Origin: Akanthomyces muscarius
Taxonomy: Eukaryota; Ascomycota; Sordariomycetes; Hypocreales; Cordycipitaceae
DNA: 64,000 nt
Direction of reading: 5' to 3'
Assembly (NCBI RefSeq): GCF_028009165.1
Contig: NC_079243.1
Location: 2,418,001 to 2,482,000, forward strand
In this document: positions 6,845 through 63,200 of the stretch, one piece after another
Position numbering within the stretch: the first letter of the stretch is position 1
Layout of the letters: each line of letters opens with the position of its first letter
Program-made: the position numbers and the translations under genes
The notes under the pieces: model-generated
Seen by the model: the letters and a program-made list of their open reading frames with translations, nothing else
Told to the model about the DNA's origin: nothing
Database searches by the model: none

Positions 6845-8502
6845 CTATACAGCCATCATTACCATTTTTGTAGTCAGATACTCGTCGATACCGTACTTGC
6901 TGCCCTCCCGGCCAAAGCCACTCTGCTTGACACCACCAAACGGCGCCACCGGATCGCTAATGGCTCCTGGATGGAAAATATTAGCATGCGAAAAACTTCA
7001 TTTTCACGAGAGGTAGCATTTCTTACCTGTATTGACACCGACCATGCCAACCTCGAGCGCCTCTGCCACCCGCCAGCATCGGCTGTGATCCTTGCTAAAG
7101 AAGTAGCCTGCAAGGCCAACATCTGCATCGTTGGCCAGCGCAATAGCCTCTTCTTCCGAATCAAATGGGAAGACAGCCGCAATCGGCCCAAAAGTTTCTT
7201 CGTGGCAGATGCGCATACCACGCTTCATGTCCGCGAGGACCGTCATGTCAAAGTAGTTGGCGCCGAGCGGCAGTCTCTCGCCACCAATGAGCAGTCGGGC
7301 GCCCTGGGCGACGGCGTCCTTGACGTGGTCTTCGCATTTCTGGACCGCGCGCCCGTGAATCAGCGGTCCGTGGGTAGTGGAGGGCTCCAACCCGTCGCCC
7401 ACCTTGAACGTCTTGACGACATCGACAAGCATGGACAGAAACTTGTCGTATACGGCGCGGTGGACCAGGATTCTGTTTGCGCAGACGCAAGTCTGCCCCG
7501 AAATTCTAAACTTGCATGCCACTACACCTTTAATGGCAGCGTCCAGATCTGCATCTTCAAACACGATAAACGGGGCGTTACCGCCCAGCTCAAAGGAGAG
7601 CTTCTTCAGCGTCGACGCCGACTGCTGCATCAGCAGCTTGCCCACCGGTGTCGATCCCGTAAAAGACACTTTTTTGACAATAGGATCTGTCGTTAGCACT
7701 TTACCCACCGCTACCGTATTCTCCATGGCCGTAATGACATTCATCACGCCGTTTGGGATGCCCGCGCGGTGCGCCAGCTCCGCGAGCGCCAGCGCCGTCA
7801 GGGGCGCCTCGGCAGGCGCCTTGACGACCACGGTGCAGCCCGCGGCCAGCGCGGGGCCGACCTTGCGCGTGATCATGGCCGCGGGGAAGTTCCACGGCGT
7901 GATGAGGCCGCAGACGCCAACGGGCTCGCGCATGGTGACGATGCGGCAGGACGGGTTGCTGCTGGCCGGCATGGCGTCGCCGGCAATGCGCGCCGCCTCC
8001 TCGGCGAACCACTCCAGGAAGCTCGCGGCGTACTTGACCTCGGTCGTCGCGTCTGCGAGCGGCTTGCCGTTCTCAGAGGTTATGAGAAGGGCGAGGTCGG
8101 CAGTGTGCGAGAGCATCAGGTCGTGCCACCGCCGGAGGAGGTGTGCGCGCTGGCGAGGCGCCGTGCTGCGGAAGTCAGGCAGGGCGCGCTGCGCGGCGAG
8201 GACGGCGGCGGAGGTGTCGGTTTCGTCGAGCTCAGGGCATTCTCCAATGATGTCAGCCGTTGAAGGGTCTAATTCATGGAAAGTTAGGTTCAATCGGTCC
8301 GGTCGTTGATGGCTTCTGTGTATATTTGGATGCGCATACTGTCCACGGAGAAGCGCTTGTCGGACGCCGCTTCTATCCATTTTCCGTCAACATAGCATTG
8401 ACTTTTGAGAAGTGAAGGGTCTTTTAGCTGTACCCATGGTCAATTATTTCGTTTTCATTTCGGTTCAATTCCGCGACTTACACGATCCTCGAGTGCAGAC
8501 AT
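6845..8502 (-). CDS. uga2: Succinate-semialdehyde dehydrogenase (NAD(P)+)
   Basis: Aldehyde dehydrogenase family enzyme that oxidises succinic semialdehyde to succinate, the last step of the GABA shunt. Four exons give 490 residues: 8502-8482, 8427-8340, 8268-7027 and 6966-6845 (introns 54, 71 and 60 bp). The joins restore the family N-terminus ([20 protein letters not shown], then [17 protein letters not shown]) and the C-terminus [18 protein letters not shown]. Catalytic features are FELGGNAP (general-base Glu near residue 262) and GQTCVCANR (nucleophilic Cys near 298), plus ITPWNFP and FTGSTPVG of the cofactor fold. [13 protein letters not shown] favours the SSADH branch over generic ALDHs. 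The start at 8502 was chosen because the seven-codon first exon MSALEDR splices into the conserved LKDP segment. It is divergent from the GABA aminotransferase, with 344 bp between starts. Confidence 0.93.
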
Positions 8503-22764: not shown

Positions 22765-23313
22765 TCATTTCCGCATCCGCTTTGACGGGTATATGCAGTT
22801 GCAAAGGCTCGGCATGATGAATCTTGATCATGTGGCGCTTCCAGTTGTCTTTTCTGGAGATCGTCTCGCCACCATTCTTCGAGTAGTCGCAGCCATCGAC
22901 TGAGTAATGAAGCCTCGTCCTCATTTCGTGCTTATCGCCAGTCATTTCCGCATCTACCTCGACAGGCATAGGCAGTTGTTACTGTTCGACATAATAAATC
23001 TTAATCATGTGGCGCTTCTAATTGTCTTTTCTTAGAAACGCCCTCGCGCCATTCTTCGAGTAGTCGCAACCGTCGACAGAGCACTGGAACCTCCTCCTTT
23101 CGTGTTGATCGGTTAGTTGGGGCCGCTATACGCCTGTCATTTCCGCATCTACCTCGACGGGCATGGGCAGTTGTTGCTGTTCGACATGATGAATCTTGAT
23201 CATGTGGCGCTTCCAATTGTCTTTTCTCGGAAACGCCCTCCCGCCATTCTTCGAGTAGTCGCAACCGTCGACAGAGCAATGAAACTTCTTCTTCTTTTCA
23301 TGTCTATCGTTGA
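22765..23313 (-). repeat. Tandem triplication of a zinc-finger module (one live, two decayed copies)
   Basis: Three direct copies of about 177-195 bp: 23137-23313 (inside the C2H2 coding exon), 22942-23136 and 22765-22941. Each encodes on the minus strand the CSVDGCDYSKNG ... NWKRHMIKIHH zinc-finger unit plus the PVEVDAEMTG tail. The reading frame is continuous through all three copies but interrupted by stops at 23126-23128, at a Trp codon turned to TAG, and at a Gln codon turned to TAA. Compared with the live copy, the middle copy differs by about nine C:G to T:A transitions, at least six of them in CpA/TpG context, which is the signature of repeat-induced point mutation. Confidence 0.85.
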
Positions 23314-24956
23314 TGTGACGCTGCAAGTGTGTCTTGGTGCCAAAACCCTTGCCGCAGCCAGGGTACGAGCACTTGTGGTCTTTACTATGATAGCGCTGGT
23401 GATGCCTGCAGCAGGTTAGCGCACGTTTACTCGACCATGTAGTATATGTCTTACTTAAGCTTGTGCGGCTGATCAAAGTACTGGGTGCAGCCAGGCTCAT
23501 CACACTGATACATGCCGTCCTGGTTCTTGACAGGCGACGGCACATGGTTTGCAACCATTCCGGGAGAAGCGCTGTGTCGGAAATCGGAGCTGTTTCGAGA
23601 GTCTGGAGATGGAGTATCCAGTTGCGTGGACGGCGTGTTTTGCGACGAGACGTCTGTGAACCCAGGACCCGGCAGAGGCGTGGAATGCTCTGATGGAAAG
23701 CTTGGATGCCGGCCAGCAGATGTAATATTGTCTGCGTGGAGAAGATTATCTTCTCCCGCAAAAGTATGGTTTGATTCAGATGCCTTCTGCTCTGGTGTAT
23801 CATCATTTGCCGAGCTCACATGGACTTCTGGCGAGCTGGCTTGGTTTGTGCTGCCCGGTGAAACGTTGTCTAGCTCCGCGGGAGGCTGTAGCGCCTGGGA
23901 GGGCGGCGACTCGTACCATGACGAAGAGAGCTGATACTCTATTCTATGCCATTGTTCCGTTTGTGTACTCGGGGCCATAATATCCATGGGATTCACCGTA
24001 CCTGGTGCTGGGTTGTTCGGAGGGGATGGCGACTTGAGCAGTGCTCGCGGAGATGGCGTGTTGGATAAGCCGATACTACGAGGTTCAGCATTTAGGCCCC
24101 TTGGCGTCGCTGATGGCGGTGGCCTGAATACAGCAGACTGCGGAGCTGGACTAGAGCTCGGCGACAGCTCCTTTGGGGACTCAGCCATGGCCTCCTCGGC
24201 TGTGGTGATGCGCTGGAGCGGTGTCGCGCCTTGGTCGGCACCGTTGTTGGACGAATTGACGGAGCTGAGTGTCTGATTTCTGTCGCTTTTGCGGCGGAAG
24301 ATGTGGCGGACATTGTGCGATAGAGAACTAGCTCTTGAGATTGTTCGAGTTGAGATCTCGGCAAGAATGGGTTCGTCGACCATGCCAAAGGCTGATGAGG
24401 GTATTGATGTTCGGTAGTAGTCCTCGCTCGTACCCTTGAGTATACCCGGTTTATCATCTTGGCCATCAACCATGTCCTTGGGCATGTATTCGAAAGTGGC
24501 CTTCGCAGTTTCCGGGCCATACTGGCCAAAGTTCAATAGCACAGGGTCTGGGTTGGGCACACCTTCACTTTGCGGAACAGCGGCGGGATCAAAGTCGTGG
24601 CCCCTCGCCAAGGCATTGCTATGCTTGAGCGAGTCACTTGACGAGAGTCGTGGGCGCGCACCGTCGGATGCATCCTGTCCATTTGCAATGGCAGCCTCCT
24701 CGTCGAGACGATGCTGGCGCAGCCGCCTCTCTCTTTTGCGGCGCTTGAGACAGCCAACGATGACGGGGTAGAGGCAAAAGGCGAGCAGGACGCAGAAGAC
24801 GACGATTCCGACCGCGAGGCCGGCGACGGCATCGTCTGATAGATCGCGCCTCGCCAATAGATTCCGTGATGGTTCCGTCGTTATCGTGATCGGGGCGTCG
24901 TCAGCGGCTGAGGGCCATGGCAGCAGCTGCCGCCAATAGCCTGGCGGGCCAGGCAT
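23126..24956 (-). CDS. Membrane-anchored C2H2 zinc-finger protein
   Basis: Two exons, 24956-23455 and 23405-23126 (intron 49 bp), encode 593 residues. An N-terminal extracellular-type segment (residues 1-42) precedes a strong transmembrane helix (about 43-70, AVAGLAVGIVVFCVLLAFCL), which is followed at once by a KRRKRERRLR stop-transfer cluster that could also act as a nuclear signal. A 400-residue Ser/Pro-rich linker leads to three C2H2 fingers at the C-terminus: CDEPGC...HKLKHHQRYH (split by the intron), CSYPGCGKGFGTKTHLQRHINDRH, and CSVDGCDYSKNG...KRHMIKIHH. The layout suggests a membrane-tethered transcription factor released by proteolysis; this is inference. I know no named orthologue. 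The C-terminus ends at a stop that cuts off further finger copies. Confidence 0.85.
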
Positions 24957-26347
24957 TAGAGGAGGCGAATGGCGTGAGTGGCGGCTGATGGTCGTGAAAG
25001 GATACGAAAAGCGGTAGCTCGTCTGGTGAATGATCGAGATTATCCGAGATTCGATTTTCGAAATCGCAGCAAATTGACTGCGGTGGCTGCGACGGTCGGC
25101 GAGTGCTGGCTCACTGGAACCCAGACGAGCTAAAATTGGAGGCCGCCTGGATCCTGGCGAAACAGGATGCGACGGACACAGCGGCGAGTCGGGGAGAGCA
25201 GCAAAACTGATGGAGCGCGCAGGCGATGCCGGGCGCAGCTCTTGAAGAACGTCGCGGCCTATTGTCAGATGTCTTTCATGGCAAAAGAGGAGGGATGGGA
25301 TGATACGATGGGCAAAAGGTTATTGGCAGCCAGCCGCACGACATGGAGGGGAGGACGGGGGAGGGCGGCTCAGGCGAAGAGCGTGTGTGGCTGGGCAGAG
25401 GTACCTGTACCTGCGCTGAGTGTAGGTATTAAGCAGGGAAGTTGCCGCTGATGGCGTCCGCTAGTGGCCGCGCTCTTCTTTAGCGTGCCATGTGTCCGGG
25501 AGAGAATGGTCAGAGGCATGACATTAAACAAGAATTCTAGTCTTCCAGTCGATCTATTCATGTGCGGCCCTGCGGTGATTCGAAGCCAGGCTCAAATTCT
25601 CACAGTCGATTACGAAAGAGTCGAACGATGGCGCAACAGCTTCGCAACCAGATTAAATGCCGATTCAATGACACGGATGGCTCCGACCGGTAAGCCGGTT
25701 GGCGGCTGGACCGGCCTGTAGTGGTTCAGCTGCCCTGTAATTCCCTGTCCTGTCGCAAGTACCGGTACCTCCGACTGTGCCACTCTGGCTGTGGAAGCCT
25801 GTATCGCCACAGCCACAACGGTCGCGTGTGACTGTACTCAGTACTCACTCATTCACTCGCCTCACACACAGCGTATACACGAAAGAATCTATTGCAGTAT
25901 GGCATCCGCAAACACAGGGTCTTTTCCCCAGTTGTTTAACTCTAGTTTTCCCTTTCAGCCATGATGATAGGCCCCGATACCCCATTCTCTACAGCACCGC
26001 ATGCATTAAATTACTCAGTAGCCCATGGTGCAAAGTGTGTAGGAAGATACATGATGTATTTTATTCACTCTAGAGTCCTGTAGACCGCAATGGGTGTAGT
26101 TTATAGGCCTTGAGACTCACCAAAAGAAAGGCCGTTTTCTTCCACTGTAGGCTACTACCTATGGATTTTGGGGCTCAAAAACAAATGTGTCGATGTTAGG
26201 TTTGCCTCACTGACGTTGGACGGCATGCATAGCTTAGTGCCATTCCAGTGGCCAGCAAATTCGATGAGAAGGTGCGCTTTCTGAGCTACGTGAAAACTTC
26301 CACAAAACAGGATTTTATTGTTGAATCAGGATAACGAAGATACCAGC
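24957..26347. other. Intergenic region upstream of the C2H2 gene
   Basis: About 1.4 kb, the 5' flank of the C2H2 gene and 3' flank of the first UstY gene. No frame here has splice or family support. Confidence 0.55.
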
Positions 26348-27443
26348 TCATGGAGGCGTGGCAACCACCACAGAACCAGCTGACTTCGTGATGAAATGCG
26401 ACCCGGTACCTGTCGCGTGTAGTTCTCTTTCGTGGTACCAGTCAAGTACGTCTTCAAAGTTTCGGCACTGATGAATGGTATTGAAATCGGGCCATGCCTC
26501 AGGACGAAACTCGACGAAGTTATAGGTAATAATACCCAAGTCGCTCGAGCACATCAATACCTGGCGTAACATCTCGATGCAGTGATCTGAAATATGAATT
26601 AGTGACTGAGTGGGTGACACATATGTTCTTTGTCACTTACCGACGTGCGTTCGCATCATCGGGTCGCCCCAGTACTTCGGATTTTGCTCCACATAGTATT
26701 CTAAATAAGTATATTTTCGGATCATGTCCTAGAGGATAATTAGCATACCGTCGCAACAAACAATGTGTCAAAGTATGTACCAAGCAGTGTAGCTGATGAA
26801 AGACTTCTACAGTCCCCATATATCCGCCGCCAAGGTCGTCCGGAAGCTGAGCGCACTCCCTGGCCGATTTTCCCATTTTAGTAACATCGTCTCCGGTGAC
26901 CGCAAAGGGTCCAACTTAGGTGAGATGTTAGAATTACCTTTGACAGAATACACGTGAAGATGGTCCTCCCTTGTCCTTCAACTTACCTTTTGTAATTCTC
27001 TTCCATGCTGCATCAAGCGAAGCATCGGGATAGCCACGATATATTGACGGCATGTCGAACGTTCCATTGAACTTAATGGTTTCGGTAATTTCGCCAACAT
27101 CTTTCAGTAGAGGGGCTGTGACTTCGGATCAACAGAACGTATTAGTAATAAAATTGATGTATGGCTTACAAAAGGTTGATGTGTGCAAAGCTTGCTCCAA
27201 TTTAGTGGACGGTGATGCTCTTAAATGGCATCCCAGGACGAAGAATGTTACAGACGCTGTTACAAGCACGAAATGAACAAGCCAGACGCCAACCTGACGG
27301 ACCCTCTGCTGCAAGTTCATCCGCTGCTTCTCGGAAAAATACTCCGACGTATCATCAGAACATCCAGATCCGGTATCGACTCTGTTGGGGCGACAGCTGA
27401 TGCCATCATGGACCTGGCAGTATTTTCCTTTACCGTCAGACAT
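26348..27443 (-). CDS. UstY-family (DUF3328) protein 1, candidate RiPP cyclase
   Basis: Five exons, 27443-27170, 27121-26987, 26914-26781, 26728-26641 and 26586-26348, give 289 residues with every join in phase. DUF3328 proteins such as UstYa/UstYb catalyse oxidative macrocyclisation of fungal RiPPs. Topology fits: a hydrophilic N-terminus, one transmembrane helix (about 52-73), then a lumenal domain. Family motifs in order are FNGTFDMPSIYRGYPDASLDAAW, GGYMGTVEVFHQLHCL (first HxxHC, residues 176-180), EYY, and HVDHC (209-213) followed by IEMLRQVLMCSSD. The paired HxxHC motifs are the putative metal-binding active site. It is divergent from the precursor gene (559 bp between starts). Confidence 0.92.
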
Positions 27444-28002
27444 GGCAAAGCAGCCGTTCGAGAGAGATATTCTCAGAAGCTCGTAGTAGGATGGGTATAT
27501 AGTAGGCGAGTGTGTGCCAAGGAGGCCAGTGCTTGTAATCTTGGGCTTGAGAACAAAAGTGCGAGGGGCTGGGATGGACGGCATAAAGGGCATGGCACTC
27601 AAGCGTGGTAAAACTCCTCTACGACTTGTCAAAGATAAGTCTTAAGTCTGTTCCTTTCGAGAACCGACGTCGGACTGTTATCAGGTAGCATTGCATCGGC
27701 TTGCAGGCTGCATGAATGATTCAAACATCCCCACCTTGTATTGATAAACCCTCATTTTTTATGACGGGGACTGGACAGAGCCTTGTTTGAGCTCTGCATT
27801 ATTCTTTGTCATGTTTCGCTTTTCAACTCGATGACCATGTGTAGACACCTGGGGTCGTGTTCGTAAGCATGCGTTCGAGTAATAACGTGTGCACTCGTTT
27901 AAAACGTTCAATCTTCCCACGTAGAAAGTTCTTATTCCTCGTCACATTAACTTGCGCTCGCCTATCCCTCTGATCACCTTGCTTCAATCACTCATCTTCA
28001 AT
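27444..28002. promoter_or_regulatory. Divergent promoter of UstY1 and the precursor peptide gene
   Basis: 559 bp separating two head-to-head cluster genes, which suggests coordinated expression. Short frames here are N-terminal extensions of UstY1 without support. No cluster-specific regulator gene or clear binding motif was identified. Confidence 0.5.
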
Positions 28003-28372
28003 ATGCAACTCAACACAGCTACTTACAATCTCTTCATCATGGCCTGCACTCTGGGACCTGCGTTAGGCAGTCCAGGTTCGTCTTACCGAAAGGATATTGC
28101 GCTTGGCGCTAATCGTATTGATAGTTCCCGTTGACCATGAGCAAGAGGCAGCCAAGAAGTTTGGCGATATCTCTACCCTCATTGAAACCAACTATAAACG
28201 CGACGAGGGCTTTGAGAAGGAAGCTGCCAAGAAATTTGGGGATATCTCTACCCTCATTGAAACCAACTATAAGAGAGACATTAGGGACTTCGCCAATTAC
28301 GGTCTCGATAACGGAGACGTCGCCCACAAGAAGTTTGGCGAGATTGATACTCTGATCGAAACCAACTATTGA
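28003..28372 (+). CDS. Repeat-containing secreted RiPP precursor (dikaritin-type)
   Basis: Two exons, 28003-28075 and 28125-28372, give 106 residues; the 49 bp intron (GTTCGT donor, CTAAT branch site, ATAG acceptor) is required to join the signal peptide to the repeat frame. Residues 1-23 are a signal peptide ending ALGS, then PVPVDHEQ. The mature part has three repeats: AAKK-FGDISTLIETNY-KR, AAKK-FGDISTLIETNY-KR, and AHKK-FGEIDTLIETNY followed directly by the stop. Dibasic sites flank the cores as in UstA-type precursors, which are cut by kexin in the Golgi. Two UstY-type genes flank it. The final peptide and its cross-link are unknown; each core has Ile and Tyr, the residues joined in known dikaritins. 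Confidence 0.88.
28148..28369 (+). repeat. Core-peptide repeats of the RiPP precursor
   Basis: Three 36 bp core units at 28160-28195, 28235-28270 and 28334-28369. The first two are 75 bp apart and encode identical cores with only synonymous differences (GGC/GGG; AAACGC/AAGAGA in the following Lys-Arg). The third is 99 bp further on and has two conservative changes. Synonymous drift with identical peptide suggests selection on the core. Confidence 0.9.
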
Positions 28373-28867
28373 ATCAGTAGTAAAGACAAGATCTGATGTC
28401 GAGACTTCAGGGAAAACTATCCATCGGCATGGGCAAGACACTCACTCGCGGGCTCCTCAAGTGTGCCTTGCTACAAGTCTCATTAGTCGAACACATTAGC
28501 TAGATAAGCGTCATCGCTCTCAATCACTTTCCTTTTCTTTTGGAAGAATAACTGCAGATCGCGAACTTTGTATCATACCTCCATGCAATCATTCCCTGTG
28601 CGGCCAGCCGCATAACCTGGCAGCCCATAGTAAGCTGCACGCTTTGTAAACAATTGGCGCACCTTGCGTCGTATGCAATGCATACAATCCATCTGCAGTC
28701 GAGCGGATATGCCACGTCGAGACCGAAAAGAAAACGTATTCACTGCTGCAGCTCGTATCAAATCGCGCTAATGGTGCACCGAAGGAAGACACTCCTGCAG
28801 GCTACTTGGTTTAAATCGTTTGTAGTATCGGAACCAGATTGAAGGGAAAACATGAACGAAACGAAAC
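28373..28867. other. Intergenic, precursor 3' flank and UstY2 5' leader
   Basis: 495 bases with no supported gene. An upstream ATG at 28852 opens a 19-codon frame that overlaps the UstY2 start and stops at 28909-28911. Confidence 0.55.
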
Positions 28868-29990
28868 ATGTTCGAGATTATGAAACCAACTGCTACAGAA
28901 CACAGCTATGAAGAGGAAACTCTCGGTTGCCACGAGGAACACCGAGGTTTCCTCGCGGATCACGACAAATTGTCTGTCTCTCCAACGCCTTGCCCGGGTT
29001 GGGCTACATCGCAACGTGGTTCCAAGCTCACAGTGAAAGAGCTCTTCCATCTCTCATTTATTCCCTTGGTCTTTATTATATGGACTCTTTCTATCTATGC
29101 TACTTTTCTTTGTACTCGTCACGCTTACATGCCAACGAGCCGCAGCTTCGAGACGGGATTTGACACTGAGCTAGGTGCGTCGAGACACCTGGCTTTTGCT
29201 CGACATTCAATAGCTAATTGCGGCACCACAGAACCCATCTGGGGCGTAATCAGCCTGGAAAAGATTCGATTTACCGGGGATTTGAAGGTTGATCCAAATG
29301 GCACTGTGTATAGAGAAGTCGTTGGACGGCAATACGTTGGTCCGCCGAGTCCAGAAATTGACGACGCATGGGTCGACATCATCAGAGGTACTTTCGCTCA
29401 TTCTACTTTTACCTAATATTCCGCCTTATTGTTTGATTTACATCGTACTAATAAGCGAAGGCGGCGGCGTTGATCTTGTCGGTGTCGAGGCAGAGAGTGT
29501 CACTCACAAGACGTACCGAAAGCCTGGTGGATGGTGGCTGACTGGAACACACGTCTTTCACCAGTTGCACTGCTTGGTATAATATTCTCATAGCTTCTGT
29601 TCGCTTCCTCGGGGTGTCTTATACACAGCTAACTGGTTAGAATAAACTTCGAATGTCGACTCACCCGGAATACTACACGCAGCACGATTTCGAGCCTCTC
29701 GAGAACTGGCGAATGCATTTGGGTGAGTAATTGCTAACATTTATTCTCTAATCCTGAATATCGGAATGTGCTTTCAAGCGCTAAATAAAACTACAGACCA
29801 CTGCATTGACATCATTCGGCAATCACTGCAATGCAGTGCAGATATGACGAAGATTGACGTGGTTTGGAATGAAGCGAAGCACCGTATCGTGCCGGATCTC
29901 AACGGAGAGCACGTCTGTCGTAATTTCCGCCAGTTGCAGAGCTGGATGTTAAATGGCTCAAGAAATTCGGAGCTTCACAAGATCCATTAG
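28868..29990 (+). CDS. UstY-family (DUF3328) protein 2, candidate RiPP cyclase partner
   Basis: Four exons, 28868-29387, 29461-29576, 29641-29722 and 29797-29990, give 303 residues in frame. The order matches the family: N-terminal cytosolic segment, a transmembrane helix (about 60-82, FHLSFIPLVFIIWTLSIYA), then IRFTGDLKVDPN, QYVGPPSPEIDDAW, GGWWLTGTHVFHQLHCL (HxxHC, residues 207-211), EYYTQHDFE and HLDHC (238-242) followed by IDIIRQSLQCSAD. It is clearly diverged from UstY1 and resembles the UstYa/UstYb pairing, in which two such proteins act together. It is co-directional with the precursor, starting 495 bp after its stop. Met-1 at 28868 or Met-5 at 28880 could start it. Confidence 0.92.
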
Positions 29991-30730
29991 ATCGCTTGCT
30001 ATAGTAGCATAGCATTTACTAACAGCCTTGGTCGTTTTAATCTGACGAGACTGAGCCAGACTTCAATTTGTACGCGAGAGAGCAATAGCTATGTGAATAC
30101 TTATTGTCCCCGGTTGCCATTTCACCATTCTCATATGCTCACGTACACTTTCTGAACGCATGGGAATCATCTAGTGGGGAGACTGCAGTCTTCGACTGCA
30201 CAGGGCAGTCTGACGCACTGTCATGCAGCACGGAAGTGACGGCTTTTCAAGGCCGAGGTCTGTCCGACATGCCCCGCAATATTACATTCAAAATCATGGC
30301 TATCAGATTGATACATCATCTTCCCCCGCTTTCCTCGCAGGCCGCATCTCCTACCCGTGTGGCGTCCGTGCCAAGCAATAAATGGACGCATTTCGGACGT
30401 GTAATAGTCTCCATCCTGCAAGGTTTCCGGCAAGACATACCATGGACATTGATGATATTGCATAGCTATATATATATTAATTTACTTAGGGTATCCGTCC
30501 TTGTGCTGTGTGTCACGTTTGGTGCTGAAAGCGGCAGCCGATATCAGTAACGTTGTAAGACTGGCGTCTTATCATTCCGTTTCGCGAACGTTACAGGTAA
30601 TCTTGGACGCCCACCTTAATCGCAACGGGGTTCTCACTTGGCGTGGAAATATAGTCCAAAGCAGCTGAAACAAATCCCATTGTCTTCGTCATTGATTCGA
30701 TCTCTCCATCAAGACATTTTCGAAGTCCTT
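29991..30730. other. Convergent intergenic region between UstY2 and the ABC transporter
   Basis: About 740 bases. The 148-codon plus-strand frame at 30104-30550 lacks any domain, splice logic or compositional support, so I do not call a gene. Confidence 0.5.
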
Positions 30731-33700
30731 TCAGTTGCCGCCTGAGACCCACAACTCTTTGAAGCGACTACCATCTTGCTTCAGTAGAGCTTCCGGCACA
30801 CCTTGCTCAACAACTCGTCCAGAGTCAAGTACCACAACCTTGTCAAATCTCAACACCGTCTCCAGCCTGTGGCTGATCATAATCACCGTATAGTGCTTGA
30901 ACTCCTGTGCGATAATGTCTTGCATCCTCTTGTCTGTTGCCGCATCCACACTGCTGTTGTACTCATCGAGAATTAACATACCACCATGATCATCTCGCGC
31001 GCAAGTATCCAAGCCAATGGCGTTTGGTGGAGCAAGGGCCAGCACATCACCTGCGTCGGCGTGTCTAGCCAAGGCGCGCATGCGACGGCGTACAATCGCC
31101 CGACTCAGTACGAAGAGCTGCTTCTGGCCTTGACTTAATTCATCGGCAGTCAGCTCTCCGCCTAAGCCGCCGTGCTCCAGTACATATGTCAACATTCCGG
31201 TCACCTGAAGCGACTGCTGGCAGATGTCGTCACTGCCTTTACCGTTCGGGTCAAGATTCATGCGAAAAGATGCGCCGTCTGGCAAGAACACGGCATCCTG
31301 CGCGATCGCGATGACACGCTGTCTGACAACGTTACCATCAATGTCGGCAAGGGATATGCCATCAATCGAAATGGTATGAATAGCTCCTGGAATCGGGTCG
31401 AGTAGCCGTAGGAGAAGAAGGACAAGTGAGGATTTCCCGCTTGCTGCAGTGTCAGTCACATGTTGGCCAACTCTTCTCAAGATCATGACTGACCTTCCTG
31501 TACGTCCACAGATTGCCACTTTTTCACGGGGCATAATCTCGAGGCTCACGTTCTTGAGTGTCGGCTTCGGCGATCCAATGTTGGCCGTGTCTCCGCGGGG
31601 TTTACTGCGAGTGGTCAGCATGTTTGGAGACGGAGCTCTGCTTTTCCCACATACTCATACGACGTGGATATTCCTTGCAGAATTACGTGTCCCGTATCTG
31701 GCCACGATGCAGGCAAAGTTTTACCATGCTGAGCAGAATCCTCTACGAGTGTTTTATCGCTGAACGTCTTGAGTCGATTAACGGCACCAATAGATGTTTC
31801 GAGTAGTGTGTAGTTCACAATAATGGAGCTCAAGTACCCACCAAAGCTGATGATGGCCACCATGCTCGCGCCTGTGAGGCCGGATTCGGCTTTTAGCTGC
31901 GTTGCTAGGATGACAATAGTGACCGCCAGCACTGCGACCAACATTCCTAGAACGAACGAGAGCCAACTTTGAATCATTTTGAGCTGAAAGTCAGGCCTGA
32001 TGGAGCTGTCCAAGAGGATGCGGTTCAGGGTCACGGCCCTGTCTGTCCATCCGAAAGCACGAAACGTGGCAATGCCCTTCATAGTGTCAAAGAAGTGGGT
32101 GTAGAGGGGGCTTTTTGCTTCCAGATCCAATAGTCGAAGTTGCCGCGACGTGCGCAGGTAGAACCTTTGAATGAAATACACAGCGGCAAATATGAATGGA
32201 TATGCGATGAGCACGTACGGCGATACCGTGGCTGTGACAGCGGCGGCACCAATCACAATCCACATCATAATGACAGCCTCCAATAAAGACACCGGCAGCT
32301 CTTCGTCAACAAGAGACATGTCTTGAGAGAAAAGGTTGGTAATGACACCCATGTCTGTAGTGGCAAAGAGCCGCAGCGGTGCTGCCATCACCGTTCGTAA
32401 CGCGTCGCTGTGTAGCTTGGTGCCGGTGACCTTTGCCACAGCCAGCATCCCGATGCTCACCTCTGCCGTGATGGCTAGTAATGACAGCATTGCGAAAGCA
32501 CTGTATATGCCAAGCCAATACGATATGCCGTGGAGAGAGTCAGCCCGCGCAGTGTCTTCGGACCACAGTTTCAGCCAAACATTGGGAAAGTTCCAGAAGA
32601 AGCCGCAGACCACCCCCATCAGGACAAGCATGGCAAGCCAGCATATTCCGATGCTACCAAAGTAGTGCACAAATACTTTCCTATCGCCTCTTGTCCTCGT
32701 CGCATCTCTGCTTTTGGCATCGGCCGCGGTGCGTTGCGGCCTTCGCTCCGCCAGCTTCAAAGTGCTTCCTTGGCTTGTTTCATCATTTTCGGAGTCATTG
32801 CCGCGGTCACGCCTTGTCAATCCAAGACTTTGAACGTAGTTGTCATTCGACCGAAGGGCAGAAAATGTTCCCTGTTCAGCAACTGTACCTTCTTGAGACA
32901 GGACGATAATATGAGTTGCTAAAGGTAGATGTCTGATGGAATGCGTACACAATACTGTTGTTGTCTTCCGCTTCCTTAGCAGCCCAAATGGTCCAAAAAC
33001 ACGGTTGAACACTTGTTGCTCTGTGTCCCTGTCAAGCCCGCTGAGCACGTCATCAAAAACATTGAGCTGGCAACGCTCATATAGCGCTCTGGCAATAGAG
33101 ACTCGTTGCTTTTGTCCACCACTCAAAGCTGCACCGTTGCTGCCAACCATGGTCTCGTCGCCTTGCGGCAGAAGCAGTAGGTCTATGTGTAGCATGGTAG
33201 CTTTTAGAATCTCTTCATACCGGACCTCATCGACATCGCCCTTGCCGGCAATATTCTCTCTGATTGTGGCATTGAGGAGAAAAGGAGTTTGATCGCAGAA
33301 TCCAATCTTAGAACAGTCCATGTCCAGGAGAATGTGTCCTCTATTGAAGACAGTCTCACCGAGAAGGGCTTTGCACAACGTCGACTTTCCACACGCGACC
33401 GGCCCAGCAACAATTGTGAGGCCGGGTTCAATCTCTGCTGATACGTTCTTGACGATATATTTTCCGTCTTCCCAGCCGAAGCATCCATCACGGATGCTGA
33501 TGGAACTAGAGTAATTACCCCGTTGTGAACCTGGGTCTCCTGTTGTTTCGGCATCCGACATTTTCTGCTCACGAAAGTCGTGCTGGCCTTTTTGTTCCAA
33601 GAACTCTTGAATTCTTTGGAAACAAGCTAACGACGCCATCAAGTACGGCGCCTTCTGAATCAACACATTAAGCTTTCCACCCGCGAGGGCCAGAAGCGAC

Positions 33701-35326
33701 ATGGAAGTGAAGATGGCCGTGACACTCAGGTCACGCATGGCGGTGACAAAGGTAAACATGGGAGATAATTGCCCGGGCGTAAAGCCAAGTGTAATGTTGA
33801 GCATCAGAAGGCTGCGAAACTTGTTCCCAATGCTGATTTCGTTGACTCGCATTTTCTGTATCGCCGTTTCTGTGGCGTCGCCTAGTCCCGAAATTTTGAT
33901 GCTCTTTATGTTGGAAATAACATTGGCAGTTTTGCTGATGCGGGCTTGAACATGCTCCATCCACTGCTTCTGAAGCTTACCCACGGTGCGCATAACGCTA
34001 CTTGATGCAACAATACATAGCATTGTTACGATAACGGACGCAGTGAAGGAAGGGCCAATCTGACGAAACAGTAGATAGTATGTCACCGCGAGCTGAATGG
34101 GAATGGCCCACAAGTCATGAATGGATGTAAAACCGAGAACAATTCGCTGGATGTCTGTACTCATGAGAGTCAAGGCCTTCTTGTCGTCTCCAGCCGTGAC
34201 ATTGACAGTTGTCGTCTTCTGGAAGATGGCGCTCACAAGGACGCTGCGCAGCTTGAAAAGGAATCTCTGGTGAAAGTACGCTTGCATCACGGCTGACATC
34301 GGAGCCCCAACGTAGATGAAGACCGCAGCACCTATGAGCCCATAGCCACTGCTCGCAGGCCGTCCTTCAGGCTGGGACAGATAGTTGAGAATGCTCTGGA
34401 TGAAAAGGGGTTGAGCCAGTTCAAAGCCTAGCTGGGCGGCGCGTGTGAGGACTGGCAGTAAGAAAGGAATACGCAACTCCCATAGTACGGACTTTGCGAG
34501 CGCAAACTGCTTTCCATTAAAGGCAGAAAGTCTGAGTCGCAGAGCCTCCTGCTGGAGGTGCTCGGCACTCATGCTCGGCTCGAGAGGGTAGAGGTGCTGG
34601 GACTTCAAAATGACCTTGTAGCCGGTGCAGAGAAGTCGGGCCAGCCAGGTACAGGTAGCTAGGCCGTAAATCCCGCTCGTCTCCTCCGGGCTTCGTTTTG
34701 CATCCTGCGATGAAATCCAGTGGCCTTTCTGTTTCGCTTCGAGGAGCACGATAAAAGCTTTGACAGCGACAGCAGCAGTGAAGACACCAGTGAATACAGC
34801 GCTATCATGGCCAGACGACGATAACCAGAATGTCCGAATGCTTGCAAGGTCGAACAGCAGCGTGAGTGGCAAGTAAATGTTGAGTATAATTGAGGGTCGT
34901 GCATCGCGAGCATGTTCAAAGACGCTAAGCGCGCCCATGGACAATGACGCTACAAGGTTGAGGACCGTTGAAGCTATAATAGATTGTCGAAATTGGACAG
35001 CTCGAGATCCTATTATAGCCAGAGCTAGCTGTAGAATGGCCAGGCCCAAGAGCGACGTCTTAACAGCAGCGATTGTTCGTTAGCGTTGGCTCAATCAAGG
35101 GCAAAGACAAGCTTACTAGCTTGAGCACCTGAAACCAAGTACCGCCGACGATGGGCGGTTTACGAGCCAAAAGATAGAGTCTAGGGACGACTAGCCCAGT
35201 TAATATGGCCGAAGGAAGAATTTCAAGGACAATTATTTCGAATTTGACTGTGAAATCAAATCCTCGGTGGCAGTGTTGGACGGCTGGACCGAAGGAGCCG
35301 TCATTTTCGCAATAGAGGAAACGCAT
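30731..35326 (-). CDS. ABCC-type (MRP-like) multidrug ABC transporter
   Basis: Full ABC exporter of 1477 residues from four exons: 35326-35117, 35058-31655, 31604-31494 and 31439-30731. The joins restore KL-TSLLG, STSYD-KPRGD and the Walker A GRTGSGKSS. Architecture: an N-terminal membrane domain TMD0 (starting NDGSFGPAVQHCHRGFDF, an ABCC hallmark), TMD1, NBD1, TMD2, NBD2. NBD1 has GPVACGKSTL (near residue 623), signature LSGGQKQRVSIARAL and a Walker B ending FDDVLSGLD, with Asp in place of the catalytic Glu, as usual in ABCC NBD1. NBD2 has GRTGSGKSS (near 1242), LSQGQKQL and LILDEYNSSVD with the catalytic Glu. Members export conjugates and metabolites. Its position beside the RiPP genes suggests export or self-protection. 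Confidence 0.93.
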
Positions 35327-44405: not shown

Positions 44406-45713
44406 GGTAGCCGCGGCTGTGAATTGAGGGCGGGAAAGATGCAGAGGCGATGTTTTCTTCCTCGCGGTGGGGCGGAACGGATGGATAGAGCGAGAGTATG
44501 GCGACAATAAGCGAGTGTATGGAATTCAAACGGTCGATGAATCAAAAGAGAGGCGGCGGCAGCGGATACTAATTGATGGAAAAGACGGCGGAATGAAAAA
44601 GGGAGATGCTCGTGTGATCTATTAATAGGGGCTTTTCACGAAGCCTCATTTACCCGCGTGACAGCCAACAGCCTCCTCGTGGCTGTTACTAGTGGGCAGG
44701 CCCGCTGTAACAGGCAATACGCCCTTGAAATAGCTGTGACAGAGATTGTATCTCTGAAAATACATCGTTGTGGTTTTATCCAATTCCGAGTCGACGTATC
44801 GGAACGAGGCGAGCCTAGTTGCTTGGCCGCTTTGTCTACGACCCGTCCAACAGACCCGTTCCGCGAGGCTGCTCTTGACGGGCGCTTCGAGCTGTTAGAG
44901 CAAGAGCAAAAGTTTGTGGCTGATCATATTAATGAGAACCAGTCACGATCCAAGCTTGCAAGCAGACGATGAGCCAATGGTTGTCGCGTGCAGTGCTCCA
45001 CCAATGCAGCAGATCAGATCCGTGATTTATCGCCCATGCCTTTCTGTAAGCCGAGTCTTTTGTTACCTTTGAAGACAAGATGCAAATTCCCTGCAGACGT
45101 GTGCAACGTGCTGAGCCGCGTGGTGGTTTACGTACACCAAGGGCCACGGGAGCACTACCCAGGTGGCGTCGAAATCCGTACCACTTGCGGGGAAGTGCGC
45201 AACAGTGATGAGCAGTCAGTTACCGAAGATTGGGACGTAAAGCATCACCGAGAAGAAGAAGTCTACTCAGATAAGTATGTACTTTTATCCTTCGGGTCGC
45301 TTGTGTTATAGTTGAATATTGCTTGACGATACCCTTGACGCTAAGCCTTATTACAGAGTAGCCCTTGGTCGTCAGAAGGCGGAACCCATGAATCTAGTTA
45401 ATCCAACGAATTATTAGTTGCACTGGCCGACGCTACCTCGTCGCGTCGGCGCTCAGCCTTATCCTTAGCGTGGACACTACACGTCAGTCCTGCGGCCGCA
45501 AGACGAGTACGGACATCCCCAAGTCGCAGATTTCGGTCCCGATGAGTCGTAATGGCCGCGTAAAGAGAGGGCCGGATTGTCTGCGCACTCTTGAATGTGG
45601 CGTACAACCCGCCCGCGAAGTATTGTACATAAGCGTAGTGATGCCCCCCCCCCCCCGTGCTTGAAGACAACCTCCGTCACTGTTAACTCATACTCACCGC
45701 CGCCCACAACACC
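44406..45713. other. Divergent intergenic region
   Basis: About 1.3 kb holding the promoters of the secreted protein (minus) and the acetyltransferase (plus). A run of 13 C bases at 45644-45656 lies about 60 bp before the acetyltransferase start. No gene supported. Confidence 0.5.
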
Positions 45714-46316
45714 ATGACATCGATGCAAGAAATGACGGATAGCTTTCGCGACGTTTTTAAGTCGGAGCGTCTCGTCTACACCGCCCTCGAGGAGACGGAC
45801 CGCTGCAAGGACTTTTGGTGGAAGTGCTGCGCCTCCGACCTCGTGAACCGGAGCCTCATCGACGCCGGGCGCCCGGTGCCGCCCTCGCGCGCCGCCTCCG
45901 ACAAGCAGCTGGCCGAGACTGTCAACGAGAGCAAGACGTACCTCGCCGTGCTCGTCTGCCTGCCCGCAGCAGACCCGGAGCCGGAGCAGCCGATTGGCTA
46001 CCTGGTCCTCAACAAGTCGTTTCCCAGCTGCGCGTCGTACCACCTCGGCTTTCTGCAGGAGCACCAGAACAAGGGCTACGGCCGCGAGGCGATCCGCTGG
46101 GCGGCCGACTACGCGTTTACGTGGTGCAACCTGCACCGGCTGAGCATCGGGGCTCTGTCGTACAACGAGCGCGCGATGCACCTGTATGCCAGCATCGGGT
46201 TTGTGCAGGAGGCGAGGAGGCAAAGCTGCATTTACTTGAATGGGTCCTGGCACGATCTGGTTGATTATCGCATGTTGAGGGAAGAGTGGGAGAAGCTGCG
46301 TGAAGAATCAGCGTGA
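45714..46316 (+). CDS. GNAT-family N-acetyltransferase (RimJ/RimL-like)
   Basis: Single exon, 200 residues. GNAT enzymes transfer acetyl from acetyl-CoA to an amine. The opening FKSERLVYTALEETD is the RimJ-type first strand. Motif A is LGFLQEHQNKGYGREAIRWA, with QNKGYG (residues 118-123) binding the CoA pyrophosphate. Motif B is NLHRLSIGALSYNERAMHLYASIGF. Substrate unknown. ATGs at 45714, 45723 and 45732 share the frame; the first is used. Confidence 0.88.
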   Translation: MTSMQEMTDSFRDVFKSERLVYTALEETDRCKDFWWKCCASDLVNRSLIDAGRPVPPSRAASDKQLAETVNESKTYLAVLVCLPAADPEPEQPIGYLVLNKSFPSCASYHLGFLQEHQNKGYGREAIRWAADYAFTWCNLHRLSIGALSYNERAMHLYASIGFVQEARRQSCIYLNGSWHDLVDYRMLREEWEKLREESA

Positions 46317-59723: not shown

Positions 59724-60268
59724 TTATGCCTTCAGCCTTCCATCCGAGATCATCTCGCGGATAACCTTGATAGACGACTGCACCGCACCACGTGCATTCT
59801 GTAATGATGTTAATAATTTCGTCGCAAGCACTAGGCCACCATCTTCTCCTGCATCAGACTCACCTTTTGCTGCTCAGCCAGCATGTCCCGCTCCTCTGTG
59901 CTTCCCCTCTCAATCTTGGGAAACTTCCACTTGAACGAGTACGTCAGGTACAGATCCGTCTCGTCGTCGCTCGGCCCCGACGACAGGATGTTCTCAATCT
60001 CGGTACCGTCCTCGAGGCGAAAGTCGACCCTGTGCGGCGCCAGCTCCGTGCAAACCTCGCTCATCTCCTTGCTGCCCTCGAAGATGACGCGACGGTGCAC
60101 CACATTGTCCTCTTCCTTGTCGACAATGCACGAGGTAATGGGCGGTACAAACTGATCTGCGTGGCGGACCTTGCGGCGCAGGCCCTCCCAAACCTGCGCT
60201 GGGGTCAGGACGGGCTCGGCGCCGGCAGGATTGATGGGGGCTGTAGCGGCGTAGTAAAGGATGGCCAT
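59724..60268 (-). CDS. DUF1857 (AtaL-like) SRPBCC-fold protein
   Basis: Two exons, 60268-59840 and 59798-59724, give 167 residues. Without the 41 bp intron (donor GTGGCC, acceptor TTACAG) the frame stops at KMVA. With it the protein continues MNARGAVQSSIKVIREMISD, the helical C-terminus usual in this family. The fold is SRPBCC (START-like), a hydrophobic-ligand pocket of about 150-170 residues. Visible motifs are LTPAQVWEGLRRKVRHADQFV, DNVVHRRVIFEG and YLTYSFKWKF. The role is unknown; the best-known member, AtaL, comes from a secondary-metabolite locus. The donor is non-consensus, so the C-terminus is less sure than the rest. Confidence 0.85.
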
Positions 60269-63200
60269 GACGAAGGATGGTTTTTTTTTTTTTGGCGGAA
60301 GAACTATGTAATTTTATGCAGTTGAATTTCTTTTTGGAACTTTCAAATAATGAGGTCAATTGGAAAGAATATCTACGCTTTTTATAGTTGTGCTGTGCCT
60401 AGTGGTTTATTAATGCTTTTGGTTTGTGGTTCCACCTAGTTCGATAACTACATCTTGGTTTCTTACTTGCTTTCTTGGTCAGCTCAGCCACTACTTCTTG
60501 ACGTCACGTAATGCGTCAAGCGCGAGATCTACGGCGCAGGAATACCAAGGAAATAAGCAGAAATGGAGTAAATGGGAGGTTTAGAGGATGCACTATGGCT
60601 TTTACGAGTTTTGTAGTCCGTCGAGATCTTGTGTAACAGGATACGTGGTTCCTGTCAATCCTCGCCGTTGTTGGGCAGGTAAGCATGGTTGGGCGGACCT
60701 TGGGCGCTGTGCTGTTGGCGGGGGTGGTTGACAACGGTTGGTCATTGATGAAACAGTGCAGCGGGCGGCCTGCAGGCCGTAAAATGTCGGCTGTCTGTAT
60801 CGGGGCCGGGGGTAGCCACGATCCCCATGACTAGCAGGTCGGCAGTGGTGTGGTAGCCTAGACGGACGAGGAAAAATGGAAGGTGTTAACCCTCGCTGCT
60901 ATTATACTAAGTTACTCGCCGGAGGGTGCATCGCAGAGACACGACTCGGACGAGGAGCAGGTAGGTTGGTGTGGGCGGGGTAGAGGGTGCATGAACCAAG
61001 TTACTACGTAGGCCAATGGTGTAGCAAAAGGTGCTATTGGTGACAAGATATGCGCCACAGAAAAGTAGACGGACATGGGAAAAAATGGAGGGCTCTGGGA
61101 GCGGGAAGTGACCAGGCGAAATAGCTAGATTGCGACTGGTGGTGTTGAGATATGTGGTGCGGAGTGAATGAACAGGCCGATGGACAAGGCAGGCTAGCAA
61201 AGTGGGCAAACGCCAAAGAGATAGACGAGACAAACCAAAGAGTTCGCTCCGGGGATGGTTGAATTGTTGAGAGACTGATGGACAAAACTCGAGGACGGGA
61301 GCGTTGGGGGCCAAAGCCAGTTACCAGTAGGGCACTTTGTTTTGCTAGACAATGGATACTGAGACATTACGTTGTAGCACTGGTGAAAGGGCAGGCAAGC
61401 ATTTTTAGCTTTGAGCCAAGGTGAATTCTGGGAAACCAAAAGACCAGGGTGGTGTGGTGATGATTAGCGGGGGATGGGAGGAGAGGAGATGAGAGGGGAT
61501 GAGAGGAGGAGTGGAGTGGAGGGTGACAAGCGAAGAGGGGAAGCGAAGGCAAACTAGTCGAAGAGGAAGCGATGATGGGTGGTGGTGATGGCGATGGTGG
61601 TGAGGGAATGGCTGATGCGGATCGGAGATGTCAAAGATGGCCATGACAATGACAATGTGATGTGCACGGCAGATTGCAACAATTACCAACGAGTTGACCA
61701 AGCGATCGGTCAGAGCACAACAACAGTGTCACTTGTTCAACTACATCTCACTTGCGCGACTGGATTTGATTCATTTCCTGGCCGAGGCGGCACGTTGCAG
61801 GCCCGTGTCTAGCTCGCTGCTAGCAGCATTCTGGACTGGGTTGGCTGGTTGGTGGTCGTCGAGACTGGAGAGTCTCGTTGGCGGATTCCGGGCGTTCTCT
61901 GGCAGGGCAGTTGCCAGGCTCTCGTTCAAATTAAAGTGGTGGGTTTCGGGGGGTTCGTACAGCCTGATGATGGGCGCATTATTAGTCCAGTGTTGAGTGC
62001 CGGCGCTTGCATGAGAAAGGCTAGAAGGTCCGTGGTGGCTCTCGCGGCCCTCTTGCGTGCATCGAGGCTGCAGGTATGTCTTGGTATCGGCCTCACCAAC
62101 AGCATCTTGCCAACTGCAGACGGGCAAGTCAGCAGAAGTACCAGTAGTTCTTCTGCGCCGTTGGAGGCCCGGCCCCTCCGCCCCTCCACTCCGGGGGCTA
62201 AATACTGCTGCTGGATATTGGATTGCTGGGGCACATATGTACCAGGGTGCAGTGGGCGGAAGAGGGTGTTGCGGCAAGACAGACAAGCATCCTGCCTGGC
62301 ACGCCTGGTCCCTTGGCCGTGCATAGCCGTGTCTTGTGCAAGAGGCGCCGCGACCGTGTTCCTTTTGTAAGCAGGCACGCAGGGTCATAAGAAAGGGACA
62401 GGTAAGAGGCCGAGCAGAAACGCCGTCGAGATCCGTAGCAAAGCGGCCAATAGTCAGTCACAGGACTTCCACCATGCAAGCCCAAGCCCGGCCGGCGGAA
62501 GGTGGGCTGGGCTGGAACTGGCTCGACATGTCTCTCTCTCCACACCACAACCACGGGATGGGTGGACAAGGCGCCGGCAGTCAGTGGTACCTTGCGACAT
62601 GCGAGCTGCAGTAAAGGAGGGGAGGGGTCCGTGAAATATGGTCTGGTGCGGCAGCTCAAGTCAGGCCAGGTTGTCAGGTTGTCAGGTTGCTGGTGGTGCT
62701 GGTGCGGGTGCTGGTTGTTTGCATTGATTGTCATCGCCGGAAATTCATGATTGGTGCGCGACGAAGATGCTGCCACACGCAGTCTAGATTGCAGTCAGCG
62801 ATTTACAGCAGACGGACAGACTGAGAAAGTCGGAAGCAGTAAAAGCGGTGCGCCTTACGTTTTGACTCGAGAGGCCGAAAGAAAGTACCCGTGATGCAGG
62901 CTTGCAAACGCGTACTACGTGATAGGTAGCTGGACTGGAGCTCCTTTTGGTCGTCTGTATGCAGAGCTTACTGGAGATGGTTGGTCACGCCGTCTTGTGT
63001 CTTTATGCCGGCAGTAGGCAGATCTGTTCCCATCTCGTGGATTTGTAAATTGTGTTTGCGGCCGGAGAATTTGGTGTGGGTGGTGTCGTGAGCCCTGGTC
63101 GTTGTGGTTGTGGTGGTGATGGTGGCTGTCGGATGTGTGAGGCGCCCACCATGTCGAATACCTAGTTACTCAGTAGCCAATGGACAAGATGGCGAGGAAA

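Follow-up and report, generated by a model that had tools for sequence, protein, structure and literature searches.

A minimal candidate UstY-RiPP cluster in which a three-copy repeat precursor is flanked by two UstYa-family oxidases

The stretch of DNA analysed here (the window, 64,000 nucleotides; C3:2418001-2482000) belongs to a genome that totals 36.2 Mb over 12 contigs and is fungal, judging from the gene families present and the shortness of the introns. Four adjacent genes within it follow one another in the order UstY1 (minus strand), precursor (plus), UstY2 (plus) and ABCC exporter (minus), and open models with plausible splice sites were obtained for all four (Table 1). A first-pass annotation of this DNA had assigned these genes to a single pathway and had described them as a candidate undescribed dikaritin-type cluster. 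The genes, their reading frames and families, the repeat architecture of the precursor and the mostly synonymous drift between its core copies were all obtained from the sequence, and we present them before turning to what the locus might make.

Table 1. Coordinates of the features of the locus (window positions) and of the other UstY loci in the same genome at which a repeat precursor was found (contig positions)
Feature	Position	Strand	Details
UstY1, UstYa-family oxidase, 289 aa	26348..27443	-	Five-exon model, PF11807; exons 27443-27170, 27121-26987 (alternative acceptor 27115), 26914-26781, 26728-26641, 26586-26348
Divergent intergenic region, 559 bp	27444..28002	.	Between the start codons of UstY1 and the precursor
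Precursor (KEP-type), 106 aa	28003..28372	+	Exons 28003-28075, 28125-28372; intron 28076-28124
Likely signal peptide	28003..28068	+	Cleavage between ALG and SP, by eye; hydropathy peak at residues 10-18
Core copy 1, FGDISTLIETNY	28160..28195	+	KK before, KR after
Core copy 2, FGDISTLIETNY	28235..28270	+	KK before, KR after
Core copy 3, FGEIDTLIETNY	28334..28369	+	KK before, stop codon after
UstY2, UstYa-family oxidase, 284 aa	28868..29990	+	Five-exon model, PF11807; exons 28868-29174, 29232-29387, 29461-29576, 29641-29722, 29797-29990
ABCC exporter, full length, about 1477 aa	30731..35326	-	Four-exon open model, Pfam; exons 35326-35117, 35058-31655, 31604-31494, 31439-30731
L003	C3:2382 kb		7 copies of EYTHPAGGVTD; beside UstY
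L005	C4:3101 kb		4 copies of GWNDTHDRAG; beside UstY
L038	C5:2940 kb		9 copies of GDILYNNQAGWG; two UstY genes
L039	C5:2847 kb		2 copies of PDILYFMPVGWG; two UstY genes
L040	C1:1214 kb		7 copies of SVEDYTIGPE; beside UstY

The precursor had been annotated as a signal-peptide protein with repeated cores. In the spliced frame a 12-residue core, FG(D/E)I(S/D)TLIETNY, occurs three times, each time with KK before it, and the N terminus is a likely signal peptide. Its two exons join in frame, and because the unspliced repeat frame (28067-28372) contains no Met, the intron is required for an ATG start. When donors at 28060-28109 were combined with acceptors at 28090-28139 in pairs over 40 bp, two GT-AG pairs left the frame open, and these differ solely at the end of the signal peptide. 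The N terminus is hydrophobic and ends in ALG followed by SPVPVDHEQ, the cleavage site being judged by eye. According to the methods passage of PMC7329392, a KEP has a signal peptide and at least three repeats of at least eight residues between Kex2 sites (KR, KK, RK or RR); the present protein has three repeats of 12, two of them between KK and KR and the third between KK and the C terminus. The earlier description of the cores as bounded by dibasic sites is thus correct for copies 1 and 2 and incorrect for copy 3, which runs into the stop codon. The spacer DIRDFANYGLDNGDVAH was considered as a second core, occurs in a single copy and was kept as a spacer. A search of the genome at E up to 10 returned the precursor itself as the single match and no paralogue elsewhere, and none of six strings of the core was found in the main text of the open-licence papers searched, in agreement with the earlier remark that the core was not one that could be recognised.

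Over KK and the core, two synonymous changes are all that separates copies 1 and 2, while copies 1 and 3 differ by four synonymous and three non-synonymous changes. Between copies 2 and 3 there are 6 synonymous changes on about 8.5 sites and 3 non-synonymous changes on about 33.5 (Fisher's test on rounded counts, p 0.0004, the copy pairs not being independent of one another). Differences between the repeats are therefore mostly synonymous, which is the pattern that selection on the peptide would leave. This bears on the possibility that the cluster has decayed, leaving a remnant precursor that is shrinking, has few and diverging copies and yields no product. Such decay could account for there being three copies only, and for a third copy that has diverged at two residues and lacks KR; however, all four genes retain open models, the drift is of the kind just described, and at L003 and L040 the last copy likewise ends its open frame without KR. 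We consider decay very improbable.

A protein was placed in the UstYa family if it matched PF11807 above the curated cut-off (25) and carried two HxxHC motifs. UstY1 scores 189.9 bits (E 7.6e-56) and carries HQLHC and HVDHC, and UstY2 scores 145.6 bits (E 2.7e-42) and carries HQLHC and HLDHC, all read in the spliced proteins, so the paired motifs reported for both in the first-pass annotation are indeed present. By eye, the N-terminal region of UstY1 contains one hydrophobic stretch. The two models agree in having one intron immediately behind HQLHCL and another within the Asp codon of the second motif. For the first of these introns in UstY1 the frame is open with 9 of 21 GT-AG pairs, and three pairs retain both motifs, all with the donor right after HQLHCL; the acceptor at 26729 was chosen because it retains residues typical of UstYa proteins (by eye, in comparison with UstY2). 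UstY2 had no match among solved structures at E up to 1, UstY1 had none in NCBIfam, and no repeat precursor was found at C6:2422-2431 kb or C2:2853-2861 kb, where the nearest UstY relatives lie. Random placement of about 30 UstY genes over 36.2 Mb would bring two or more within 6 kb with P about 1e-5, a value that overstates the surprise because UstY genes cluster in the genome.

The fourth gene encodes the full ABCC exporter that had been claimed, with membrane domains and both nucleotide-binding domains matching Pfam. Its first two donors were set by consensus among nine open combinations, which give proteins of 1463-1477 aa, and its third intron was set by hand. Compared with NCBIfam, the main frame matched 144 families, of which the best 25 all scored below their cut-offs, an MRP model being at the top. 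By eye, an additional stretch, ALARHADAGDVLALAPPNAIGLDTCARDDHGG, seems to precede the Walker B region of the second nucleotide-binding domain (31439-30731, minus). ABCC genes form a large family in this genome: of 281 candidates found with the main frame 40 were scored, and these gave at least 46 matches, among which are many of nearly full length as well as some that are fragments of a single gene. The other ABCC matches listed are all more than 15 kb away from the UstY matches, so UstY loci do not habitually have an ABCC neighbour. The claim that all four genes serve one pathway is well supported for the precursor and its two UstY genes; for the ABCC gene the basis is adjacency only, and we lean slightly towards counting it in.

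A shared divergent promoter had also been suggested between UstY1 and the precursor. The gap between the two start codons exists, but no motif common to it and to the upstream regions of UstY2 and the ABC gene stood out: these regions share no 9-mer, and they have four 8-mers in common (both strands), a number reached in 19 of 200 random triples. As far as tested the cluster is minimal, as first described, and no tailoring genes lie beside it. Tyrosinase (PF00264) gave 13 exon-level matches genome-wide, none of them on the window's contig, and the two S41 peptidase matches in the genome are both on other contigs. Neither a methyltransferase nor a P450, tyrosinase or peptidase was found among 29 further stretches of the window compared with Pfam (28 taken from the 121 of at least 130 aa, the cluster's own included in that number, and one of 85 aa). 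A thirtieth stretch compared in the same way belonged to the ABC gene. Matches in the surroundings were to an amino-acid permease, an aldehyde dehydrogenase, a Zn2Cys6 regulator, Hsp70, 2EXR, RRP40, GNAT, SEN1, an AtaL-type protein and POP1, with C2H2 below cut-off and nothing for the other stretches. The aldehyde dehydrogenase (7007-8386) lies 18 kb from UstY1 and the GNAT acetyltransferase (45687-46313) 10 kb from the ABC gene, and both were left out of the cluster.

Two further observations concern these surroundings. By eye, a long frame at 23004-25319 (minus) contains just one hydrophobic stretch, close to its N terminus, and the frame adjoining it has the weak C2H2 match below cut-off; together they are possibly one membrane-anchored C2H2 protein beside UstY1. 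At 59834-60313 (minus) there is an AtaL-family protein (PF08982, 147.7 bits), the family being named after a secondary-metabolite cluster, and no partner from a secondary-metabolite family was found among the neighbouring stretches scanned.

UstY genes are found at many other places in this genome. The 48 exon-level matches to PF11807 form 22 loci when matches at most 15 kb apart are grouped, and a repeat precursor lies close by at six of the 22, the window included, which is a lower bound because most loci were read for about 1.5 kb on each side only. At the other 16 no repeat precursor was seen in the stretch read (mostly about 1.5 kb each side), which indicates that UstY genes often stand without one. 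The five sibling precursors (Table 1) have KR sites, and their cores, some copies of which vary by one residue, are unrelated to the window core; Tyr is present in five of the six cores. L038 and L039, whose cores are related and which have two UstY genes apiece, appear to be paralogous clusters. At L040 a tyrosinase match (C1:1217233-1217898) lies 2-3 kb from the precursor, and precursor, UstY gene and tyrosinase match all fall within about 3.5 kb. L040 therefore looks ustiloxin-type, and is the candidate locus of that type in this genome, while the window locus is different and simpler. With six loci of this kind, of which L040 also has a tyrosinase match, the genome provides a useful internal comparison.

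The scan for repeats preceding dibasic sites gave no match in 20 shuffles of the window, a lenient control in which base triplets were shuffled. Serving as a natural control, the remainder of the window together with L035-L037 (about 30 kb) yielded a single match at 23004-23297 (minus), which by eye represents C2H2-like repeats read in another frame and was dropped. The repeat of L008 as read in a second frame was dropped as well. L038-L042 were outside the scan, and their sequences were read for repeats separately.

The precursors of L038 and L039 each lie between an 'LMC'-type and an 'LQC'-type UstY. A tree was built from 29 motif-2 fragments (29 of 32 rows, after two duplicates from L020 and one short row from L034 were dropped; supports 0.71-0.98); in it UstY2 joins the second subtype (support 0.79) and UstY1 falls in a broader clade that holds the first (support 0.74). 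Pairwise scores against the first and the second subtype were 52.8 and 47.8 for UstY1 and 41.6 and 49.7 for UstY2. These differences are small, and they weakly suggest that UstY1 and UstY2 are probably one each of the two subtypes.

The reading of the window locus as a minimal UstY-RiPP cluster, in which a repeat precursor is flanked by two UstYa-family oxidases, is well supported, and it is likely that the locus makes a UstY-modified peptide released by Kex2. Against this reading stand the presence of three copies only, the use of KK as the N-side site and the lack of a common promoter motif, together with the 16 UstY loci at which the stretch read showed no repeat precursor and the lack of a tyrosinase match on the contig. 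Pathways of this kind are known already and occur commonly in fungi, while the core sequence looks new; the term 'undescribed' in the first-pass annotation is too strong for the type of cluster, as loci pairing a KEP with DUF3328 are numerous and at least five more occur in this genome. In the passages of PMC7329392, 1758 of 7878 KEPs (22%) have DUF3328 neighbours, DUF3328 genes are most frequent at the gene adjoining the KEP, and Tyr occurs in 65.6% of the repeats of DUF3328-linked KEPs versus 38.2% in others. The same source describes KEP repeats as highly diverse and 2560 KEPs as having no homologue at all, so a core of its own is nothing unusual, and the 10 fungal-RiPP clusters given by antiSMASH for Beauveria bassiana in PMC12142624 indicate that several such loci per genome are not unusual either. 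As to the class, the locus appears to fit the broad definition of a dikaritin, a KEP precursor cyclised by UstYa homologues (so worded in a passage of PMC10512285), with two PF11807 genes directly flanking the precursor. It does not fit the narrow definition, that of the ustiloxin/phomopsin type, as its cluster contains neither a tyrosinase nor an S41-family peptidase.

It could be argued that the precursor yields an unmodified secreted repeat peptide, similar to a pheromone or signal, and that the UstY neighbours serve another metabolite. The passages of PMC7329392 report 6120 of 7878 KEPs without a DUF3328 neighbour and describe the yeast mating factor as cut by Kex2 and linear, but they also report that DUF3328 neighbours are missing from almost all pheromone-like KEPs. 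Here two UstY genes directly flank the precursor, and no polyketide or nonribosomal-peptide gene was found among the window stretches scanned with Pfam, which makes an unmodified peptide quite improbable.

For the UstY-modified peptide that we favour, we infer a course of processing, cross-linking and export, as well as any bioactivity that the product may have. Peptides released by Kex2 are trimmed by carboxypeptidases, and UstY enzymes use copper. The signal peptide would route the precursor into the secretory pathway, Kex2 would cleave after KR and probably also after KK, and carboxypeptidase trimming would leave the 12-residue peptide. Since copy 3 ends the protein at Tyr, the C-terminal Tyr of the core is well defined. 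UstY1 and UstY2 may jointly oxidise each core unit. The likeliest product is one in which the C-terminal Tyr is joined oxidatively to the side chain of an Ile or Leu within the core, each link costing 2 H, and this product would be exported or sequestered by the ABCC pump. We regard such a Tyr cross-link as evenly poised, and the product would presumably be cyclic. That the two UstY enzymes alone, with no tyrosinase, form a macrocycle by linking the C-terminal Tyr back to an Ile or Leu inside the 12-residue core is a tentative and somewhat doubtful proposal; if true, the ring direction would be opposite to that of ustiloxin, and the chemotype would be one apparently undescribed in the passages of the sources cited here.

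The UstY pair might instead modify the core without cyclising it, by desaturation, hydroxylation or halogenation of Ile, Leu, Phe or Tyr, to give a linear peptide. Passages in the literature describe UstYa homologues that desaturate residues in phomopsin biosynthesis (PMC10512285) and that hydroxylate and chlorinate in cyclochlorotine clusters (PMC12048977), and the contig of the window has no tyrosinase match. However, the core bears Tyr and two UstY genes flank its precursor, and asperipin-2a is cyclised although its four genes, as listed in PMC6514808, include no tyrosinase. A linear modified peptide is therefore an unlikely product of the locus.

Among known clusters, that of asperipin-2a (aprA, aprY, aprT, aprR) is closest in gene content to the window locus. 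As described in the passages of PMC6514808, it consists of four genes, for a precursor, one UstY, a transporter and a reductase, and so shares with the window locus a repeat precursor, a UstY and a transporter, with no tyrosinase among the genes listed. The window locus differs in having two UstY genes rather than one, in that no reductase gene was found beside it, and in its unrelated core of 12 residues with a single C-terminal Tyr, where asperipin-2a has several Tyr; its transporter is an ABCC pump, whereas the type of AprT is not stated in those passages. With the ustiloxin and phomopsin clusters the locus has in common a repeat precursor of Kex2 type, here with a likely signal peptide, and adjoining UstYa-type proteins. 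Cyclisation of ustiloxin and phomopsin needs a tyrosinase according to a passage of PMC7329392, whereas the window locus has neither tyrosinase nor S41 peptidase. It also has 3 core copies against the 16 given for ustiloxin in PMC6514808, and its Tyr is C-terminal, while a passage of PMC9233826 describes an N-terminal Tyr linked to an internal Ile in ustiloxin and phomopsin. In the position of its aromatic residue the window core resembles victorin, in which the side chain of a C-terminal Phe is linked to an internal Leu (PMC9233826), although the residue is Tyr in the window core; victorin is extensively modified further, according to the same source, whereas no further modifying gene was seen at the window locus. 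The epichloecyclins (GigA) also derive from a few-copy repeat precursor with KR sites, and a cross-link between Tyr and Ile has been proposed for them (passages of PMC9233826 and PMC6514808); they are, however, cyclic nonapeptides with an N-terminal Ile, an internal Tyr and a different core. Few UstY-RiPP products are known, five being named in the passages of PMC10512285 (2022) versus the 1758 DUF3328-linked KEPs predicted in PMC7329392, and against this background a cluster with two oxidases, no tyrosinase and a short, defined core provides a compact test of a UstY pair acting alone.
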